Positions 1,468 through 38,970 of a DNA stretch of 64,000 bases are shown here, piece by piece; positions within the stretch are counted from its first letter, which is position 1, and the number at the start of each line of letters is the position of its first letter. The DNA is from Pseudomonas syringae CC1557. GTDB lineage: Bacteria; Pseudomonadota; Gammaproteobacteria; Pseudomonadales; Pseudomonadaceae. The position numbers and the translations under genes are program-made. Where the stretch lies: assembly GCF_000452705.1 (NCBI RefSeq), contig NZ_CP007014.1, positions 2,790,001-2,854,000 of the forward strand, read 5' to 3'. Under the pieces are notes generated by a model that was not told where the DNA came from, did not search any database, and saw only the letters and a list, made by a program, of their open reading frames with translations.

Positions 1468-1541
1468 GGCCGAGTAGCAAAATGGTTATGCAGCGGATTG
1501 CAAATCCGCCTACGCCGGTTCGATTCCGACCTCGGCCTCCA
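1468..1541 (+). tRNA. tRNA-Cys (GCA)
   Basis: A complete cloverleaf: acceptor GGCCGAG pairs with CTCGGCC, the anticodon loop is TTGCAAA (anticodon GCA), the T arm contains GGTTCGATTCC, and the CCA end is encoded. It stands alone and is followed within about 12 bases by a strong terminator. Confidence 0.97.
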
Positions 1542-4684: not shown

Positions 4685-4987
4685 CTATCTATCGAGTCTG
4701 TCGAGCGCTTCGTTCAGCGCCGAAATGGCTGATAGAGCCCATACGTGATGCTGTTCTGTGCTGTGGCCGAGCGTCACGTCGTATCCGAGCATTGACGATG
4801 CATGAGCGCGCAGACGCTCAATGTTTTCGCCAGCGTACGGGGCGCGCTCTTCCAAATAGTCACCCAAGCCTTTCACAAGGATGGATATCGCACTGAATGC
4901 CGCAGCACGCTGAAACAGATCATCCGTCCCACGGGCAGCGCTGAGAAGATCCTCTATTTTGTTGAGAGCCTGTTTTGGATCGTTCAT
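4685..4987 (-). CDS. Hypothetical helical protein, phage-accessory-like
   Basis: 100 residues, almost all helix (KIEDLLSAARGTDDLFQRAA and SALNEALDRLDR), with no catalytic motif. The ATG at 4987 has GAG about 8 bases upstream; an earlier TTG in frame is less likely. Its composition resembles small accessory proteins carried by Pseudomonas prophages, and it lies next to a decayed phage-associated gene, so it may be a leftover of an older element. Function unknown. Confidence 0.55.
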   Translation of the reverse strand: MNDPKQALNKIEDLLSAARGTDDLFQRAAAFSAISILVKGLGDYLEERAPYAGENIERLRAHASSMLGYDVTLGHSTEQHHVWALSAISALNEALDRLDR

Positions 4988-5091
4988 TAGCAATCTCGGT
5001 GGGTGAACCTACATAGCCAAAAGCTACTACTCGATGTCCCCTGACGCTACTGTCATTCCATCCAGTCTGTATGCCTGGCCAGCGCGACGGC

Positions 5092-5533
5092 AGGACGACC
5101 ATAGCTTACAAAGACGGCTTGATCGCCTATGACTCTCGCGCTGGGCACTAAACGACCCTTACAGACGACGATTGCAATAAGCTGCTGTAGACGGTCAAGG
5201 GCGCTCACTTCCTTTGTACAGGCGCTGCCTGCGACTTTGATGCCCTGATCGCCGCTACTTGTTAACGCAGCATCGGCACCGCTTGAGGCGTCTGATTATG
5301 TGTACGAAGGTGAAACGCTCTGGCTGATCCGTCATGACGAAAAGACCGGGTTCTGGAAGAGCAGGATCAGGCTTGATCGCTCAGCCGCTATCGGCTGCGG
5401 ATCGCCATTAGCCCTGGCGGCAACGGACATGTGCGCCGCTGCCGCGGAAACCATTGAGGTGACCAAGATGCGGGATACGTGCACTGGTGGTTTGGTGAGG
5501 CCGCTGGTTATTCAGGGGGCGAGCGTTCAGTAG
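5092..5533 (+). pseudogene. Decayed Ntn-hydrolase (HslV/proteasome-like) phage-associated gene
   Basis: Reading from AGG at 5092 gives RTTIAYKDGLIAYDSRAGH, matching the start of a family that normally begins MTTIAYKDG with the catalytic Thr after Met; the start ATG has become AGG. In the same frame there are stops at 5149, 5188 and 5263, with recognisable segments between (TDDDCNKLL, CDFDALIAA). The C-terminal part (GETLWLIRHDEKTGFW to RDTCTGGLVRPLVI) continues in the +1 frame after a shift near 5265-5285. The product cannot be made. Family recognition is from memory and should be confirmed by protein search. Confidence 0.75.
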
Positions 5534-5534
5534 G

Positions 5535-5918
5535 TCAGGCTTTCTTTTGGTAGGGACTCATCTTCACAGCTAAAAGAGCTCGCTCCTTTGTCAGTGGCTT
5601 CATCACCCCCTTGGCGTCATCAAGCAGCATGTACAGAAAGTATCGGTCGTCCTGATCTCGTAATATCCGGTAAACCTCTGCATACACTTTCGAGCCAGGG
5701 GCTACGGTTCGATCTACAAGCAATTCATAGCTAACGATATGCAGGTTCTTCAGCGCCGCCTGGAAGTCTGCATTGATTCCGGCTTCCCACCGGTTACCTC
5801 CGCGCACGCTCAAGATGACTCCTACCAGCAGAATCAGCGCGAATCCCGCTAGCTCAAAAAGGTTCGTTCCCTGCTCCACGCGCCGATCTCCCACGATTCC
5901 TGATTCGCTGTTAGTCAC
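5535..5918 (-). CDS. Hypothetical single-pass membrane protein
   Basis: 127 residues beginning at GTG. One clear membrane segment lies near residues 22-40 (ELAGFALILLVGVILSV), followed by a soluble domain with a predicted mixed alpha/beta pattern ending MSPYQKKA. It is convergent with the Ntn-hydrolase pseudogene, ending 2 bases from it. No family recognised. Expression and start are uncertain. Confidence 0.45.
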   Translation of the reverse strand: MTNSESGIVGDRRVEQGTNLFELAGFALILLVGVILSVRGGNRWEAGINADFQAALKNLHIVSYELLVDRTVAPGSKVYAEVYRILRDQDDRYFLYMLLDDAKGVMKPLTKERALLAVKMSPYQKKA

Positions 5919-6083: not shown

Positions 6084-6646
6084 CGACGTCATTGGGCATA
6101 CGGAAAGTTTAGGAGCCCAACGAAAACGATTAGGTCGGTAGCTCGTGTAACTGGATGGCCGGGAGCGCAATGCATTGCACGTCATCGCTATGAAAGATAC
6201 TTATGTGTTCATTTGAATTGGTAGAAGTATCTTAATCACTCGGTCGAGTTGTTTTTGTATGGAGGCTTAAGGTTTAGCATGAAGTTATCTTGTTAGGTTT
6301 TGCACGAAAAATCGGTGTGGGTAGAATTGCCGTCATGATTCTCTGGAGGTCCGCGCGGTAAAAGTAAGCAGTCGGCCTGCTTCAGTTTTCAATCAGCGTC
6401 AACACGGAAATTAATTATATATAAAATTTAATACAAAATATATCTTATTAAATATCAGGTAGTTAACTTGATATTAGGCCTTAATGCACCTCATGAAAAC
6501 ATTAATTTCTCACAGTACAAGCAAGAGGTGTCACTATGATGATGGCCAAGTGACATTATCTCTGCAGGGAATGAAGTCTGTAGCCGCTGCATGACTAAAA
6601 TACCCCAATCATGCCAAGGAAAGGCTTGTTTTTCAGGACTGATAGA
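6084..6646. other. Gene-free AT-rich stretch upstream of the chemoreceptor
   Basis: No supportable coding frame. Bases about 6405-6475 are strongly AT-rich and likely include the chemoreceptor promoter. A small GC hairpin (GCAG/CTGC) lies near 6368-6382. Confidence 0.6.
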
Positions 6647-14405: not shown

Positions 14406-15347
14406 ATGCAAAGAGATGATATAGAAGCGGCCGTGTTGCTTTTCCGCAGCGGTGTTCGCCCATTCAGCTATCGCAGGCCGAATTGGTTTTTTATAGCAGG
14501 AGATGGTATTGGCTATCCATTGAAGTATATCTATGCTATGGCTCTAGGGATTGGATCTTTAAATACAAATACATCGGCAGCTAAACGACAGCTAGTTGAA
14601 TTGGGTTATGATATTTTTCGCTCTGCTGATAGAAGTTTCTCAAGAGTTTTTTCGTCTGAAATTGATTTGAGCGATGATTCTGGTCTAGCCGAACTCCGCA
14701 TTCCAGCAGAGCAGCTACGAAAAGTTACTGCTGACCATATTTGGGCCGCTGTTCAGGCACTTCTCCACGGCGTCGAGGCTATAGGCTTTGGTCCATCCGT
14801 AGATTACGATCTACTGGTCGAGGACGGGGTTAGGTTAGCGCCCAAGCAGGTATTTGGGCTCGCGGCAACCTTAGCTTTGGGATTCACGGTTGGGCCAGGC
14901 CATTTTCACGGTGGTTTGAATACGGTTTGTTTTGAACTGTTAGAGGCCGCGGGCTATACGGTTATCGCCAAAGGTGAACAACCCAAATTTCAGGATGCAC
15001 CCATCGATATTGAAGAGAAAGTTTGGCTAGAAGGAAGTAAAAAACTAGTTTCTCACCTTCGCAGGGAGCGAAAGCCAGGGCTGGCCCAAGCTAAGAAAGC
15101 GTCATTTATAAAGAAGCACGGCAAACTTCGTTGCGAGCAATGCTTACTGGATCCTGTAAAAACGTATGGTGAGTACGGGGACGCTTGTATTGAGGTGCAC
15201 CATGACACTGTTCTAATTTCCGAAATGAACGATGATCATGCAACGACCTTGGACCAAGTGCGGTGCTTGTGTGCCAACTGCCACCGTGTAGTGCATCGCG
15301 CATTGAGGGAGCAACTAAAGAGCGATTCATCCACCGCAGTAGCCTGA
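14406..15347 (+). CDS. Putative HNH restriction endonuclease
   Basis: 313 residues from the ATG at 14406 (TAGG upstream; an earlier in-frame ATG at 14340 is possible). The middle has an element seen in McrA-type restriction enzymes (VRLAPKQVFGLAATLALG ... FHGGLNTVCFELLEAAGY), and the C-terminus is an HNH nuclease: CEQC near 243, EVHHD near 263, CANCHRVVH near 288-296. It should cut double-stranded DNA with a metal ion. Base composition is AT-richer than the surroundings, indicating acquisition. Divergent from the C5 methyltransferase; it ends in a 21-bp convergent overlap with the PAPS-reductase-like gene. It could be methyl-dependent rather than methyl-protected. Confidence 0.72.
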   Translation: MQRDDIEAAVLLFRSGVRPFSYRRPNWFFIAGDGIGYPLKYIYAMALGIGSLNTNTSAAKRQLVELGYDIFRSADRSFSRVFSSEIDLSDDSGLAELRIPAEQLRKVTADHIWAAVQALLHGVEAIGFGPSVDYDLLVEDGVRLAPKQVFGLAATLALGFTVGPGHFHGGLNTVCFELLEAAGYTVIAKGEQPKFQDAPIDIEEKVWLEGSKKLVSHLRRERKPGLAQAKKASFIKKHGKLRCEQCLLDPVKTYGEYGDACIEVHHDTVLISEMNDDHATTLDQVRCLCANCHRVVHRALREQLKSDSSTAVA

Positions 15348-16094
15348 ATCGCACTTGCCTGCGGGAAACAGCTGCATTTGGTCCCTCGACCTAGGCGCGT
15401 CGGCCCACTGGATAACGGCCCGTATGCCGACAGCGTTTTTTCGACGTGCTGATCTGAACATGACCCGAGGTTTGCCCTTGGCGGTGAACCCCAGTTCGCG
15501 CTCCGTGACATCGATGAGCTCAATCCGGTCTTCGGACAGAAGCCGCAGCTCGTCGATGTTGGCGTTAATGCACGGCTCGCATTCGCGGGACCGATGCGGC
15601 AGGACCTTGAAACCCGCGCGAGCTAACAGCTCGTTGCGCATCCCGTCGTCGTGGCGCACCAGCGGCTGCCACAGCTCACGGCCTCCATGTCGCTCCGATT
15701 CCATCACATGCTCTGGCGCATCTGCGCGGTGGGCGCTTTCCGACCGGCGAACACCGGTCATGGTCGTGGCCAATTTTTTTGGGTCATGCTCATCAAGCCA
15801 GCGCAGGGCCGGTAGCACCTTCAGCTCGGCGGTGCAAAACTGGCCTTGGCCCCCAGCACCAGGCCAGCCGCACTTGCGTTTCACCAAGGCAACCATACCT
15901 TCTGATTGGGTTTGGAACGTGCGAAAGCCATAGGATTGAGCCAGTGCCTCGCCCTGCGCAACCCGAGCTGGCCACTGCACCGCAGCCCAGCCGGTGTCGG
16001 AGTACAGGCAGACGACGTCTTTGAGCTGCCGTTCGTGCGCCCATTGTATCAGCGCGATGGAGTCGTTCCCGTAGCTGCAGAAAAGGACGTGCAT
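15327..16094 (-). CDS. PAPS-reductase/adenine-nucleotide alpha-hydrolase-like phage protein
   Basis: 255 residues. The PP-loop SYGNDSIAL lies at residues 7-15, followed by VVCLYSDTGW and a Cys-bearing C-terminal half (RSRECEPCINANIDELR, CDSGYCGG). The fold activates substrates by adenylation or uses PAPS; phage members are common but their reaction is unknown. The relation to DndC-type sulfur-transfer enzymes is only at fold level. It lies beside the methyltransferase/HNH pair, so a nucleic-acid modification role is conceivable. Confidence 0.75.
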   Translation of the reverse strand: MHVLFCSYGNDSIALIQWAHERQLKDVVCLYSDTGWAAVQWPARVAQGEALAQSYGFRTFQTQSEGMVALVKRKCGWPGAGGQGQFCTAELKVLPALRWLDEHDPKKLATTMTGVRRSESAHRADAPEHVMESERHGGRELWQPLVRHDDGMRNELLARAGFKVLPHRSRECEPCINANIDELRLLSEDRIELIDVTERELGFTAKGKPRVMFRSARRKNAVGIRAVIQWADAPRSRDQMQLFPAGKCDSGYCGG

Positions 16095-16577: not shown

Positions 16578-16784
16578 TTGAAGAAGTCGATTTTTGCTTT
16601 ATTTGCCGCCGTAGCCGTGTTGGCTGGCTGTTCAACCGCAGGGCCTTACGTGACCAACATCTCAAGCGATGGCAGAAACGGCCTGAATATTGAAAAGTGC
16701 TCTGTGCAGATGAATGCTTTCATGGGCACGGTGACTAACATCAATTGCATCAGCCAGAACGTTCAGCTCAGTCGCAGCAATTGA
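16578..16784 (+). CDS. Small lipoprotein with TTG start
   Basis: 68 residues from TTG at 16578, set by AGGAG 7 bases upstream. Signal core FALFAAVAVLAGC carries the lipobox at its end, then STAGPYVTNISSDGRNGLNI with two more Cys. A likely lysogenic-conversion lipoprotein, preceded by the second copy of the structured element. An upstream in-frame ATG at 16539 would run through the hairpin and is rejected. Confidence 0.65.
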   Translation: MKKSIFALFAAVAVLAGCSTAGPYVTNISSDGRNGLNIEKCSVQMNAFMGTVTNINCISQNVQLSRSN

Positions 16785-17121
16785 TGGCGAGCGGTGAGAT
16801 GAGCTCGTCTGATTCGTCTTGGTCGGCGCTCCGGATATTCCTGACGCCCGCGTCGTAGATTGCCCGCGCCACGGATTCGCTAACCACGATTTCGTGGCGC
16901 GGATAAGTCAGGAAGGCATCAAGCTCTTCATCATCCATCAAATCCATCTTCATGATCGCGATCTGCAAGACCTCGCTGATGATGGGCATCTTGCCGCGCT
17001 GGCGAACCCGATTCAGGGCCTGCTCAATGCCAGGCCGAACCCGGTGGCGCAGCTCTTTCTCGGCGACCAGTTTCCGCTTCAGCGCCGTCTTGGCTGATCG
17101 CTCTTCTTGATCCATCGCCAT
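16768..17121 (-). CDS. Hypothetical early phage protein
   Basis: 117 residues, with a basic N-terminus (KTALKRKLVAEKELRHRVRPG) and an acidic C-terminal half. AGGAG lies 8 bases upstream of the ATG. Last gene of the recombination operon before the plus-strand cargo; its 3' end overlaps the small lipoprotein gene convergently by 17 bases. Function unknown. Confidence 0.6.
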   Translation of the reverse strand: MAMDQEERSAKTALKRKLVAEKELRHRVRPGIEQALNRVRQRGKMPIISEVLQIAIMKMDLMDDEELDAFLTYPRHEIVVSESVARAIYDAGVRNIRSADQDESDELISPLAINCCD

Positions 17122-34596: not shown

Positions 34597-34968
34597 ATGG
34601 ACCCAACCGACCTCGGCCCAGGCACAGCTACCTGGCTGGGCGGTACGGGCACAATCCTGCTGGGTGGCTTCCTGTGGCTGAGGAAATTCCTCTCCAGGGA
34701 TGCGACCGACCGCGCCATGGACAACGCTGATATCGGCACCGTCCGCCGGCTGAACGAACTGCTCGACTCTGAGCGCCTGGCTCGCAAAGAGGCCGAGGCC
34801 CGATCTGACCAGTTCGCCAAAGAGCGCAACGAACTCGCCGCAGCTGTTGGCCGCATGGAAGGGAAGATCGAAGCCCTGACCAGTCAAGTGGCCCAGCTCA
34901 CTGACAAGGTGACCACGCAGAGTGACGAGATAGCTCGACTGCGTTCGCGCCTGGGAGGACTCAACTGA
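34597..34968 (+). CDS. Single-pass membrane coiled-coil protein (possible holin-like)
   Basis: 123 residues. A short N-terminal segment, one membrane helix (ATWLGGTGTILLGGFLWL), then a long charged coiled coil (RLNELLDSERLARKEAEARS ... SDEIARLRSRLGG). Proteins like this precede the terminase in Pseudomonas siphophages and are sometimes called holins; one helix with a long cytosolic coil is atypical for a holin. Coupled to the next gene by TGATG. Confidence 0.6.
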   Translation: MDPTDLGPGTATWLGGTGTILLGGFLWLRKFLSRDATDRAMDNADIGTVRRLNELLDSERLARKEAEARSDQFAKERNELAAAVGRMEGKIEALTSQVAQLTDKVTTQSDEIARLRSRLGGLN

Positions 34969-35306
34969 TGGAAAGATGCGCAATCAATTTCGTCGCCCGC
35001 CACTGGTGGAGACGAGTCGAGGTATGGCTGATGGCGACCCTGCTGATTGCCGGTGGTGCGATGCTGGGCTTTCAGGTTGCCGAGTGGCGGCTGTCCAGCT
35101 GGTACACCGCACAGGTGACGGAGGTTCGCCGTGGATACGACGAGGCCACCAAGCAGCGTGACATGCGCCTGAACAAGCTCGCCAACACCGCTACCGAGGC
35201 AGCAGGAAGAGTGGAGGACGCCGCAGGCAAGGCGACGGAGGCCGCAGACACAGCGAGCAAGGCCGCCGACAAGGTCAACGAGGTGCTGGAGCGGAACGCT
35301 CCGTAA
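34968..35306 (+). CDS. Membrane-anchored coiled-coil protein
   Basis: 112 residues. A basic head, one membrane helix (VEWLMATLLIAGGAMLGFQV-like), and an Ala-rich coiled coil with heptads TEAAGRVEDAAGKATEAADT. Translationally coupled to the preceding membrane coiled-coil protein; the two probably form a complex at the inner membrane, possibly part of lysis control (inference). Confidence 0.6.
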   Translation: MERCAINFVARHWWRRVEVWLMATLLIAGGAMLGFQVAEWRLSSWYTAQVTEVRRGYDEATKQRDMRLNKLANTATEAAGRVEDAAGKATEAADTASKAADKVNEVLERNAP

Positions 35307-35361
35307 CGCGCCACAAATTCAGGCACTGCCATTTCGTGGCGCGAACCACAGAGGAAAGATC

Positions 35362-35592
35362 ATGGATAACCAGCACAAGAAAATCACCGGCTACCGCGAC
35401 CTAAGCCAGTCGGAGATCGACGGCATGAACTCGATCAAGGCCTTGGAGGCTGATACCGGCGAGCTGTTCAAGCAGATCGGCCAGATTGAAGGTGTTGATC
35501 CCCGAGTACTGGCTCTGGCTAAGACCAATCTTCAGCAAGGGTTCATGTGGTTTGTGCGCTCCATCGCCAAACCAGCCGACCCCTTTATCTGA
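35362..35592 (+). CDS. acb2: Acb2/Tad1-family protein, candidate anti-CBASS nucleotide sponge
   Basis: 76 residues starting MDNQHKKITGYRDLSQSEID. This start matches the family first known as DUF7681, now Acb2/Tad1, whose members form oligomers that bind cyclic di- or trinucleotides or gcADPR and so silence CBASS or Thoeris immunity. The residues reported as ligand-binding in phage PaMx33 Acb2, Tyr11 and Lys26, fall at the same positions here (Tyr11, Lys26). The C-terminal helix TNLQQGFMWFVRSIAKP is also family-like. GAGGAAA precedes the ATG. Assignment is from recall, not a search. Confidence 0.75.
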   Translation: MDNQHKKITGYRDLSQSEIDGMNSIKALEADTGELFKQIGQIEGVDPRVLALAKTNLQQGFMWFVRSIAKPADPFI

Positions 35593-35617
35593 AAACCCGC
35601 TGCGGTACGGAGTGACC

Positions 35618-35836
35618 ATGCCTCATCCCACTTTCCACAGTGCCGGAGACGGCCGTGGTCTCAGACGCGTGTTCGTGAATGGCAATGAGATCGACAATGT
35701 TCTCTGGTGCGATACGGCTATTGGCATTGTGGTCTACGCGCCCAGGCCTGTGAGAGCAAAGCGGCCTTCCCGTGAAGAGGTCTACACCCGGCGCTTGCGC
35801 GGACGAGTAACGGTTACCCCTCGCGATGGTGAGTGA
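35618..35836 (+). CDS. Small beta-rich phage protein
   Basis: 72 residues (MPHPTFHSAGDGRGLRRVFV ... RGRVTVTPRDGE). RRVFVNGNEIDNVLWCDTAI suggests a small beta sandwich. GGAGTG precedes the ATG. Lies in the small-gene block that follows the Acb2-like gene; function unknown. Confidence 0.6.
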   Translation: MPHPTFHSAGDGRGLRRVFVNGNEIDNVLWCDTAIGIVVYAPRPVRAKRPSREEVYTRRLRGRVTVTPRDGE

Positions 35837-35838
35837 TC

Positions 35839-35973
35839 ATGACCAAGAAGAACTGGATGGTCATGACACCCGGCCACAAACCATTCCCGATGATCCTTCT
35901 TGAGTGCGACCTCGATCACGCAGGCGCGCTTGCCTTTGCCCGGTCGATCTGGCCGCGCTGCACAGTGGAGTAA
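35839..35973 (+). CDS. 44-residue phage protein
   Basis: MTKKNWMVMTPGHKPFPMIL then LECDLDHAGALAFARSIWPRCTVE: compact beta-beta-alpha pattern. GAGTG precedes the ATG, 2 bases after the upstream stop. Protein-like composition; no family recognised. Confidence 0.55.
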   Translation: MTKKNWMVMTPGHKPFPMILLECDLDHAGALAFARSIWPRCTVE

Positions 35974-35976
35974 AGC

Positions 35977-36222
35977 ATGAAGATTGTTGAGCTCAAGCGT
36001 GAGGGGTGGCGTGATGCCGCGAAAACCCTGCGCAAGATTGCTGACGACCTCGATGCGGGTGAGCATCCAGAGTGCACGGTAGGCGTATTGACGCTGATCG
36101 GACCGAAGGGTGAGGTGACAGTATTCGGCCTTGGCCCGAAGTGTGACGACCTGCAATGCCTGGGTGCTATGCGCCTGGGTGAGCAGAAACTGATTGATGT
36201 GTTGCTGGATATTGATGACTGA
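35977..36222 (+). CDS. Small phage protein
   Basis: 81 residues: helix MKIVELKREGWRDAAKTLRK then beta strands CTVGVLTLIGPKGEVTVFGLG and a final helix. Starts 3 bases after the previous stop, so it is in the same transcript. Unknown function. Confidence 0.6.
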   Translation: MKIVELKREGWRDAAKTLRKIADDLDAGEHPECTVGVLTLIGPKGEVTVFGLGPKCDDLQCLGAMRLGEQKLIDVLLDIDD

Positions 36223-36255
36223 GGGTGTGCCGCGGGGTTAGTGCGGCACAGCAAA

Positions 36256-36447
36256 TCATTGTTTTTTGATAGCTGCCTGTATCTGGTCCGCGTAATCGGA
36301 TAGGCGGCTCATCTCGCCCTCAAGTAAACCGCCAACGCTTGAAGTGCTAACGCGAGCATGGATCAGTTCAAGCGCCGCGTTAACGGCCATGATGCGCTTG
36401 TCTTCATCGTCGCCATTTCCGTAGTTTGAGTAGGGGATAATGGGCAT
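36256..36447 (-). CDS. Small minus-strand gene in the late region
   Basis: 63 residues (MPIIPYSNYGNGDDEDKRIM ... YADQIQAAIKKQ), helical, with GGAG 8 bases upstream. It runs against the late operon, so it should be expressed in the lysogen or as an antisense control. Resembles a recurrent small protein of Pseudomonas prophages (recall). Function unknown. Confidence 0.55.
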   Translation of the reverse strand: MPIIPYSNYGNGDDEDKRIMAVNAALELIHARVSTSSVGGLLEGEMSRLSDYADQIQAAIKKQ

Positions 36448-36565
36448 GTTGCTCTCCTTGCGTTGATTGATTCTCACCAATACCGACAACCAGCCACTAT
36501 TTCAATATAACCTTCGTTTTCTGAGATTTCTCTATGACAGCCACGCAACCCGACTGGGAGGCGCC

Positions 36566-37189
36566 ATGAACAGGCCAAATCCTCCGGCCGAGCTGCTGAA
36601 GCTGTCTGATGAGTCCGACGTGTTCATGCGACTGGTTCCAGCCAAAGGCGTATGGAAGTGGATACAAACCGAGATCCTTGCCGATACCGGCAGCATTCAC
36701 AACGAGGACCATGCCCATCTGATCGATGCTGACATCTGCATCATGTGGGCCTCATCTGCATTCACGAAGCAGGGGCGCACAGTGCTGGGCCAGGCCGAAC
36801 AGGTCGCGTTCCGTGCTGGGGGTTGGCAGAAGGCAAGGATGGAGCAGCAGATGCGTGACTGGTTCGGCTTCGTACCGAGTTACATCATCACCCTGGCCGC
36901 CGATTACTGCTCACAGTGCAGCGATGCAGACTTCTGCGCACTGGTTGAGCATGAGCTTTACCACATCGCCCAAGCGGCGGATCAGTACGGCACACCCAAG
37001 TTCAGGCAAGACGGATTACCGAAGCTTGAGATGCGTGGCCACGACGTCGAAGAGTTCGTCGGTGTGGTCCGTCGCTATGGGGCAAGCCCGGATGTCCAGC
37101 TGCTGGTTGACGCTGCAAACAAGCCTGCTGAGGTAGGTAAATTGAATATATCGAGGGCCTGCGGAACCTGTCTGCTCAAGTCGGCCTGA
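36566..37189 (+). CDS. Putative phage metallopeptidase-like protein
   Basis: 207 residues with the zinc-protease-like motif HELYH (His129, Glu130, His133) inside CALVEHELYHIAQAADQYG, and Cys pairs CSQC and CGTC. It belongs to the PhageMetallopep-type putative metallopeptidases found just upstream of terminase genes. GGGAGG precedes the ATG. Target unknown; the motif suggests proteolysis or a retired zinc site. Confidence 0.78.
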   Translation: MNRPNPPAELLKLSDESDVFMRLVPAKGVWKWIQTEILADTGSIHNEDHAHLIDADICIMWASSAFTKQGRTVLGQAEQVAFRAGGWQKARMEQQMRDWFGFVPSYIITLAADYCSQCSDADFCALVEHELYHIAQAADQYGTPKFRQDGLPKLEMRGHDVEEFVGVVRRYGASPDVQLLVDAANKPAEVGKLNISRACGTCLLKSA

Positions 37190-37220: not shown

Positions 37221-37682
37221 ATGGCAGCCCTGAAGCATGAGGTGAAGAGCTTCATCGTTCAGGCGTTGGCTTGTTTCGACACCCCCTCGCAAGTCGTAGA
37301 GCAGGTCAAACAAGAATTCAGCATTGAGATATCCCGCCAGCTGTGTGAGTCGCACGACCCTACCAAGCGTGCCGGGGTGAACCTTGCGGCTAGATGGGTG
37401 ACCCTGTTTCACGACACACGCAAGCGTTTCCGTGAAGACACGGCTGAGATTCCGATCGCCAACCGTGCTTATCGGCTGCGCGCCCTCGGCAGGATTGTTG
37501 AGAAGGCAGAAGGCATGCGCAACCTGGCACTGGCCCTACAGGTCCTTGAACAGGCCGCCAAAGAATCAGGCGATATGTACGTCAACCGTCACCGCAAGGA
37601 TGAGCCGGGCGACGAGCCAGCGATTCCGACTCGCATCCAGGTCGATGTAGTGGACGCGAGGAAGCCTGATGCCCAGCCTTAA
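37221..37682 (+). CDS. Terminase small subunit (DUF2280-type)
   Basis: 153 residues: MAALKHEVKSFIVQALACFD, then TPSQVVEQVKQEFSIEISRQ and HDPTKRAG, the start of DUF2280 proteins, which carry an HTH that recognises the packaging site. The C-terminus is helical and acidic. It overlaps the large-subunit gene by 14 bases, fitting stoichiometric co-expression. Confidence 0.85.
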   Translation: MAALKHEVKSFIVQALACFDTPSQVVEQVKQEFSIEISRQLCESHDPTKRAGVNLAARWVTLFHDTRKRFREDTAEIPIANRAYRLRALGRIVEKAEGMRNLALALQVLEQAAKESGDMYVNRHRKDEPGDEPAIPTRIQVDVVDARKPDAQP

Positions 37683-38970
37683 CGTCCCGCAATCGAAATT
37701 TCTGCTGCTAACCCACAAGTTTCGTGCATTCGTGGCCGGTTTCGGCTCTGGGAAGACCTGGGTCGGCTGCTCGGCGCTGAGCAAGCACTTCATGGAGTGG
37801 CCGGGTGTCAACGCCGGTTACTTCGCGCCGACTTACCCGCAGATCCGGGACATCTTCTATCCGACTATGGAAGAGGTGGCCTACGACTGGGGGTTGAAAA
37901 CAAAGATCAACCAGGCGAACCATGAGGTTCACATCTACAGCGGTCGGCAGTATCGCGGCACCGTGATCTGTAGGTCGATGGAGAAGCCGCAGACCATTGT
38001 CGGTTTCAAGGTCGGGCATGCGCTTGTCGATGAGCTGGACGTTCTGACGTCGATCAAGGCGCAGCAGGCCTGGCGCAAGATCATCGCGCGAATGCGTTAC
38101 AACCTGCCCGGCCTGAAGAACGGCGTGGACGTCACCACGACACCGGAAGGCTTCAAGTTCGTCTTCCTGCAGTTCGTAAAGCAGCTGCGCGACAAGCCGG
38201 CGCTCAAGGAGATGTATGGCCTTATCCAGGCCAGCACCTTTGACAACGAGCTGAACCTGCCGGACGACTACATCCCTTCGCTGATGGAGTCGTACCCAGA
38301 GCAATTGATCAGGGCGTACCTGAACGGCCAATTCGTCAACCTGACGTCTGGGTCGATCTACCACGCTTACGACCGCAAGCTGAACCAGTGTTTCGACACG
38401 GTGCAGGCTGGTGAGCCTCTGTTCATCGGCATGGACTTCAACGTCGGCAAGATGGCAGCGATCACGCATGTGAAGCGTGACAAGGGGCTGCCCCGAGCCG
38501 TGGACGAGTTCATGGACGGCTACGACACGCCCGACATGATCCGGCGCATCAAGGAACGCTACTGGCGCCACGATGGCGATAAATACATCAAGTCCTGCGA
38601 AATCAGGGTTTACCCAGACGCCTCCGGCGACTCGCGCAAGTCAGTCAATGCCAGCGTCACGGATATCGCCATGCTCAAGCAGGCAGGCTTCACGGTGATC
38701 GCCCCTGCGGCCAACCCGCCAGTGAAAGACCGTATCAACGCGATGAATGCCATGTTCAGCAACGCTCAGGGCGAGCGGCGCTACCTGGTGAACCCATTTA
38801 CTTGCCCGACATACGCGGATGGCCTGGAGCAGCAGATATGGGCCGCAAACGGTGAGCCGGACAAGTCGCAAGGCAATGACCACGCAAACGACGCCGGTGG
38901 TTACTTCATTCACAAAGAATTCCCGATCGTGAAACCGGTCGCTTCTCTCAACCTGGGATACGCCCGATGA
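37669..38970 (+). CDS. Terminase large subunit
   Basis: 433 residues. ATPase: Walker A GFGSGKT (24-30), Walker B HALVDELD (Asp121, Glu122), coupling motif TTTPEG. Nuclease: GMDFNVGK (Asp256) and the later YPDASGD acidic residues of an RNase-H-like fold. It powers DNA packaging and cuts concatemers. Followed by portal with a 4-base overlap. Confidence 0.95.
   Translation: MPSLNVPQSKFLLLTHKFRAFVAGFGSGKTWVGCSALSKHFMEWPGVNAGYFAPTYPQIRDIFYPTMEEVAYDWGLKTKINQANHEVHIYSGRQYRGTVICRSMEKPQTIVGFKVGHALVDELDVLTSIKAQQAWRKIIARMRYNLPGLKNGVDVTTTPEGFKFVFLQFVKQLRDKPALKEMYGLIQASTFDNELNLPDDYIPSLMESYPEQLIRAYLNGQFVNLTSGSIYHAYDRKLNQCFDTVQAGEPLFIGMDFNVGKMAAITHVKRDKGLPRAVDEFMDGYDTPDMIRRIKERYWRHDGDKYIKSCEIRVYPDASGDSRKSVNASVTDIAMLKQAGFTVIAPAANPPVKDRINAMNAMFSNAQGERRYLVNPFTCPTYADGLEQQIWAANGEPDKSQGNDHANDAGGYFIHKEFPIVKPVASLNLGYAR

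Follow-up and report, generated by a model that had tools for sequence, protein, structure and literature searches.

The locus considered here raises the question of what a 76-residue open reading frame (ORF) does between the lysis and packaging genes of a Pseudomonas prophage, and what a long inverted repeat is doing directly in front of it. It lies in a 64,000-nucleotide stretch of the Pseudomonas syringae CC1557 genome (contig NZ_CP007014.1, positions 2,790,001 to 2,854,000; called the window below, with coordinates counted from its first letter). A preliminary description made from the letters alone had proposed a sponge of the Acb2/Tad1 family, acting against the cyclic oligonucleotide-based antiphage signaling system (CBASS) or against Thoeris. 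By its sequence, the gene is a new member of the known Acb2 family, in a compact form, and very probably encodes a sponge that sequesters CBASS signals. The gene, which we call acb2, and the motif preceding it are:

35350-35355, plus strand: Shine-Dalgarno-like motif AGAGGA, read from the sequence
35362-35592, plus strand: acb2, compact form, 76 aa, ATG start

The protein matches the Pfam model PF24729 (Acb2_Tad1_hairpin) at 67.2 bits against a curated cut-off of 27, with residues 10-70 spanning the whole profile (1-58 of 58), and this is the only PF24729 match in its genome. Among solved structures, a single-sequence search finds Acb2 of Pseudomonas phage PaP2 (p26, 8h2j; E 8.6e-14) and phage T4 Vs.4 (7uq2; E 0.0099), and a 28-sequence profile search finds the same two with E values of 7.2e-30 and 1.5e-9. 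The predicted protomer is an all-helical hairpin (helices at residues 16-40 and 47-69, no strand, 15 residues ahead of the first helix), and in the structural comparison that the preliminary description had proposed as a check, the best matches of the predicted model are Acb2 and Vs.4. A Foldseek search with a single-sequence model of the 76-aa protein returned no matches, NCBIfam holds no model that matches the product, and a defense-library search with acb2 and five other window proteins matched none of the six. Relatives are abundant: 1063 of 1066 candidates are homologs at E <= 1e-3, and at a loose E <= 1, tblastn matches 326 records among 50,697 from phages, most often phages of Vibrio, Pseudomonas, Escherichia, and Klebsiella; query coverage is 80% or more in 319 of these. 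Named genomes with acb2 loci at least 87% identical are all Pseudomonas except one labelled Pantoea.

Positions where ligand contacts are expected are conserved. In an alignment of 33 sequences picked for diversity (the window's included, T4 not included, one with masked residues), Tyr11 and Lys26, which the preliminary description had placed correctly, are invariant in 33/33, as is N23, and R48 (32/33), R66 (31/33), and T55 (30/33) nearly so. Y11 corresponds to T4 Tyr8 and T55 to T4 Thr68 in alignments that share the same one-residue chain offset, and with Lys26, which we take to be a cyclic nucleotide contact in Acb2, the cyclic dinucleotide contact positions are conserved. R48 aligns to PaP2 Arg67, presumably part of the cyclic triadenylate (cA3) site. 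In T4 Acb2, cyclic dinucleotide binding is disrupted by Y8A, and affinity is lowered by T68M, according to passages of two reports (PMC12657218, PMC12657230). The window protein resembles PaP2 Acb2 in its N-terminus (MDNQHKKI-GYRDLSQ), in Y11, K26, and R48/R67, and in the helical hairpin, at about 43% identity, but is 17 residues shorter overall (the hairpin tip lacks 19, and the C-terminus has 2 extra). It resembles T4 Vs.4 in fold and in the pocket Tyr and Thr, whereas the N-terminus differs, T4 has Asp at the R48 position, and the ligand-stacking Phe82 of T4 is replaced by Ala69, as it is by Ala in PaP2 Acb2.

Two readings would deny the gene or move it to another family. A long antisense ORF is annotated across the acb2 homolog in BK061476 and PP003914, and truncated acb2 copies exist, as would be expected if acb2 were a spurious or decaying ORF and the antisense frame, as these two deposited phage annotations imply, the true gene. 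The pattern of variation leaves this virtually no chance. The ORF is as first described, and in a set of 133 close homologous sequences (at least 80% identity, matched from residue 1, from fetched loci, with duplicates from different routes and the window copy kept and distant or N-terminally partial matches excluded), the exact 76-aa length is found in 124 and a Shine-Dalgarno-like motif in 130. Across the 102 unique full-length sequences, 35, 19, and 71 sites (each of 75) vary at plus-strand codon positions 1, 2, and 3, and the ratio of nonsynonymous to synonymous rates (dN/dS) is about 0.025 over 1500 random pairs; the antisense frame, open in 87 of 124 close homologs, is closed in the other 37. 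acb2 is a plus-strand protein gene under strong purifying selection, and the antisense reading was dropped as already contradicted for the window copy by the codon-position pattern, dN/dS, and the closed antisense frames. Two deposited P. aeruginosa phage genomes (L003 and L004) have a long antisense ORF annotated over acb2 at 4980-5675 (minus strand), in one of them as an 'Rz-like spanin', so acb2 was missed in both. The second reading, a Tad1-type anti-Thoeris sponge binding glycocyclic ADP-ribose (gcADPR), is only slightly better placed and very improbable. The Pfam hairpin model is named for both Acb2 and Tad1, and the protein shares this model name with Tad1, which has an N-terminal beta-sheet domain; gcADPR binding is credited to Tad1 and Tad2, not to Acb2 (both in passages of PMC12043709). 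With only 76 aa, all helical, the predicted model has no N-terminal antiparallel beta-sheet domain, and the structural and sequence matches are to Acb2 and Vs.4. We rejected the Tad1 reading because that domain is absent from the predicted model; on this model, the anti-Thoeris label is not supported and should be dropped, while the Acb2 part of the original claim stands on sequence, profile, conserved residues, and predicted fold.

Passages of three reports (PMC12043709, PMC10419184, PMC10449767) describe Acb2 proteins as hexameric, with three cyclic dinucleotides bound per hexamer and cyclic trinucleotides bound at sites distinct from these. By analogy with these characterized relatives, the two-helix hairpin protein of the window would assemble into a hexamer that tightly binds cyclic oligonucleotide signals from CBASS enzymes. 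With the signals sequestered rather than cut, the cell-killing effector would stay off during prophage replication after induction, and the cell would be spared until phage release. Acb2 acts in lysogenic induction rather than maintenance, as stated in part of PMC12043709, which fits the place of acb2 beside lysis genes, where late expression would be expected by the same analogy. No SMODS-domain cGAS/DncV-like nucleotidyltransferase of CBASS was found in the host genome. SMODS matches are present in 32 of 298 genus-mates (26 above cut-off); of these, 2 belong to the 25 genomes that have a PF24729 match, so there is no signal of acb2-CBASS co-occurrence.

What the protein binds, and against which system, leaves room for two further readings. 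The reduced middle region noted in the preliminary description is borne out, with 19 residues fewer between the helices than in PaP2 Acb2 and 16 fewer than in T4 Vs.4. This compact form is common among relatives and hence not unusual: 75 of the best 120 of 1063 homologs have the 76-aa length, and the 74-76 aa size range is represented in phages of Pseudomonas, Erwinia, Salmonella, Aeromonas, Acinetobacter, and Leptolyngbya, as well as in other bacterial genomes, alongside insert-bearing forms of 93 (PaP2), 98, 108 (JBD67), and 117 aa (VP882). A different ligand range for the compact form, as had been suggested, is possible. One version is a compact Acb2 that is mainly a dinucleotide sponge, with the dinucleotide site near the termini intact and the trimer-channel site for trinucleotides (cA3-type) altered by trimming of the tip. 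The two kinds of ligand site in Acb2 are independent of each other, according to a passage of PMC12043709. The 16-19 residue deletion is confined between the helices while Y11, K26, and T55 are conserved. R48 is retained in 32 of 33 sequences, however, and if PaP2 R67 lies in the cA3 site, as we assume, that site would be kept; we hold a shifted range to be rather unlikely. Less probable still is a cyclic nucleotide binder whose main role is to counter a different pathway, for instance a host second messenger or the signals of type III CRISPR, or that trips Panoptes-like guards; Panoptes is triggered when T4 Acb2 removes its decoy nucleotide (passages of PMC12657218 and PMC12657230). Of the 25 PF24729 matches in the genus, 3 are interrupted by an internal stop and 2 are incomplete pieces below cut-off, which is compatible with a cost. 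No link to any one system emerged, however, and prophage decay alone could explain the broken copies. Truncated prophage homologs end after 36 aa (L055, P. lini), 40 aa (L008), and 56 aa (L027, identical to L059, P. entomophila), and a natural premature stop is known in phage PaMx41 (a passage of PMC12657218); intact acb2 copies are far commoner than broken ones. A compact Acb2 acting on CBASS signals is the reading that we retain; its natural hairpin-tip deletion, in a widespread form, could separate the two ligand sites.

acb2 itself is ordinary within its family; the repeat in its leader is less so, and is the part that deserves specialist attention. Two copies lie in the window:

35307-35343, no strand assigned: 37-bp inverted repeat CGCGCCAC-N21-GTGGCGCG, immediately behind the upstream stop and 18 nt from the acb2 ATG
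16865-16901, no strand assigned: another copy of this inverted repeat, inside the phrog_5439 ORF at 16768-17121 (minus strand)

The leader copy reads CGCGCCACAAATTCAGGCACTGCCATTTCGTGGCGCG and is squeezed between the stop codon at 35304-35306, which ends the upstream gene, and the acb2 Shine-Dalgarno-like motif. As RNA, it has a predicted folding energy of -19.3 kcal/mol (z -2.54), a stability that 4 of 200 shuffles reach. In the second copy, the phrog_5439 coding frame over the repeat reads PRHEIVVSESVAR. The repeat search found no match in 100 shuffles of the window and, with up to 3 mismatches, two further repeats in the same genome, 8 kb apart, within an apparent second prophage related to this one. 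One of them (1 mismatch) sits immediately behind the stop of a gene homologous to the spanin-like gene upstream of acb2, and the next gene differs; the other, with 3 mismatches, is near the end of another ORF, and this prophage has no acb2. Locus L326 carries copies of the 36-37 bp inverted repeat, at 6563-6599 and 14703-14739. An Rfam search of 34900-36300 gave one sub-threshold microRNA match only, inside acb2, and no known RNA family for the leader, and the consensus scan at the leader repeat listed no sigma-70 promoter and no classic terminator. In the literature searched, outside which most subscription papers fall, no description of the leader repeat was found, and, among the matches listed, papers containing one of three motif strings look unrelated by title and start of abstract.

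The repeat extends well beyond this genome. Upstream of close acb2 homologs, a dyad of at least 9 pairs is present in 62 of 100 unique sequences, compared with 0-2 in five shuffles, and upstream of distant homologs in only 2 of 14. It exists as two covarying variants, GCGCCAC/GTGGCGC and GCGACAC/GTGTCGC. In 80 of the 100 sequences, the arms match either consensus in at least 12 of 16 bases, a selection that favors both variants and admits mixed pairs; here the fifth arm pair is A-T in 40, C-G in 39, and G-T in 1, and the seven other pairs are nearly constant. Mixed pairs were admissible and just one was seen: a double change preserves the symmetry of the arms. The exact form CGCGCCAC-N18-TTCGTGGCGCG occurs in 52 of 298 genus-mates (67 matches against 3 for a reversed control), with many matches of the coding kind. 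Viral contigs, scanned per variant as samples so that site counts are lower bounds, hold at least 126 and at least 104 unique sites for the two variants. Among the matches listed, 33 and 61 sites stand directly before a Shine-Dalgarno motif and the ATG that opens an ORF no shorter than 40 aa, making 94 of 230 unique sites start-associated and 136 not, and at 77 of these 94 the opposite flank of the repeat has a stop codon no more than 7 nt away; in a wider, overlapping set, a nearby stop codon is found at 101 of 129 sites compared with 13.7 at control offsets. The 94 downstream ORFs among these matches form 24 protein clusters (at least one probably spurious), of which 9 stand behind both variants, including acb2 (4 and 8), a 63-aa phrog_15190 protein (3 and 27), and a metallopeptidase relative (1 and 7); five small cargoes that were scanned yielded no known function. 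In one count of 197 unique sites, 75 lie in coding frames reading RHE...VAR, 74 are start-associated (33 of them acb2, a bias from the loci fetched), and 48 are neither. Many further prophage ORFs contain the RHE...VAR coding version, which has its sequence and spacing in common with the start-associated repeat, and several repeats lie ahead of terminator-like hairpins, as judged by eye. A single variant is used in 8 of 10 loci and both in 2 (on the same contig), against a permuted mean of 5.1, with 173 of 5000 permutations as high; this uniformity does no more than suggest one regulator per phage.

The genes around acb2 support its initial placement at a 'late-early border', which here means between holin-like and spanin-like genes on one side and terminase genes on the other. 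In order, phrog_2658, phrog_6065, acb2, three small genes, one minus-strand gene, the metallopeptidase, the DUF2280 gene, and the large terminase follow one another:

34597-34968, plus strand: phrog_2658 'hol-like chemotaxis' (PHROG match), probably holin-like
34968-35306, plus strand: membrane/coiled-coil protein, phrog_6065, probably spanin-like; homolog annotated 'lipoprotein' in phiPSA1
35618-35836, plus strand: 72-aa accessory gene, phrog_3540, function unknown
35833-35973, plus strand: 46-aa gene, phrog_8532, function unknown
35977-36222, plus strand: 81-aa gene, phrog_30428, function unknown
36467-37189, plus strand: putative phage metallopeptidase, PF18894 (145.9 bits), phrog_513, start codon uncertain
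37221-37682, plus strand: DUF2280 protein, in the putative small-terminase position
37669-38970, plus strand: large terminase subunit

The labels for 36467-37189 (plus strand) disagree, PHROGs giving 'transposase' and Pfam a putative phage metallopeptidase. Elsewhere, a small HslV/proteasome-beta-like gene is a frequent neighbor in the accessory region (for example, L159 2601-3080, L163 3328-3753, and L328 3567-4046), such a protease gene lies near acb2 in Aurca01, Medea1, and HHBS14_1, and a ClpP-annotated gene lies ahead of acb2 in an Erwinia jumbo phage (L160). We rejected a coupling of acb2 to proteases as a rule because tblastn finds the HslV-like gene in 34 of 153 acb2 loci. Farther off, a tRNA-Cys gene (1468-1541, plus strand) close to the left end of the window is a possible prophage integration site, and a PAPS-reductase domain protein (PF01507, above cut-off) is encoded at 15327-16094 (minus strand).

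What follows the spanin-like gene varies between phages. Of 86 spanin-like gene loci (80 from viral contigs plus 6 added by hand, counting the window), 30 show a dyad of 9 or more pairs no farther than 60 nt from the stop, and the same dyad is present in 26 of 73 unique segments compared with 0-1 of 73 when shuffled; the other 56 loci are without it, some retaining a weaker dyad or the left arm alone. The next gene is acb2 in 13 loci (10 with the dyad), a phrog_3540 gene in 11 (6), and another family in 8 (3), the rest falling into groups of 4 to 1, and no gene is called in 24. In phiPSA1, MR13, and Medea1, other genes stand behind the same or a slightly diverged repeat, and in Aurca01 it is acb2. 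We tentatively propose that Pseudomonas prophages contain many interchangeable small-gene cargoes, acb2 among them, united by the start-associated 36-37 bp repeat, whose two covarying variants stand before the same families, and that the repeat marks a post-lysis junction of cargo exchange; it could either be bound by a phage-encoded regulator that recognizes DNA or RNA or form a preferred boundary for recombination, and the other cargoes would be candidate host-defense antagonists. We regard this proposal as somewhat less likely to be right than wrong.

The nearest parallel is with the start-associated sequences (SAS) and extended SAS (ESAS) of cluster K mycobacteriophages, which, in the part of PMC3203893 that describes them, are inverted repeats that recur immediately ahead of the start codons of some of the genes, with a consensus that varies between phage groups. 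An inverted repeat just upstream of several phage gene starts is what we find at 94 of 230 sites among the matches listed. That source gives 17-bp imperfect repeats with a spacer of mostly 4-13 bp, together with the 13-bp SAS. The leader repeat differs in having 8-bp near-invariant arms (often with longer pairing) within a 36-37 bp element, in its hosts, and in its unrelated sequence; on inspection of the sequence, the 13-bp SAS GGGATAGGAGCCC is absent from the acb2 leader. If the exchange proposal is true, the candidate host-defense antagonists would include phrog_15190, phrog_3540, phrog_9557, and phrog_30428, all four without a known function, together with further cargoes. If the repeat holds up, it would tag small unknown phage genes that include one proven type of immune antagonist, offering a sequence handle for finding others, and it would give a handle on how accessory genes at the lysis-packaging junction are switched on or swapped.
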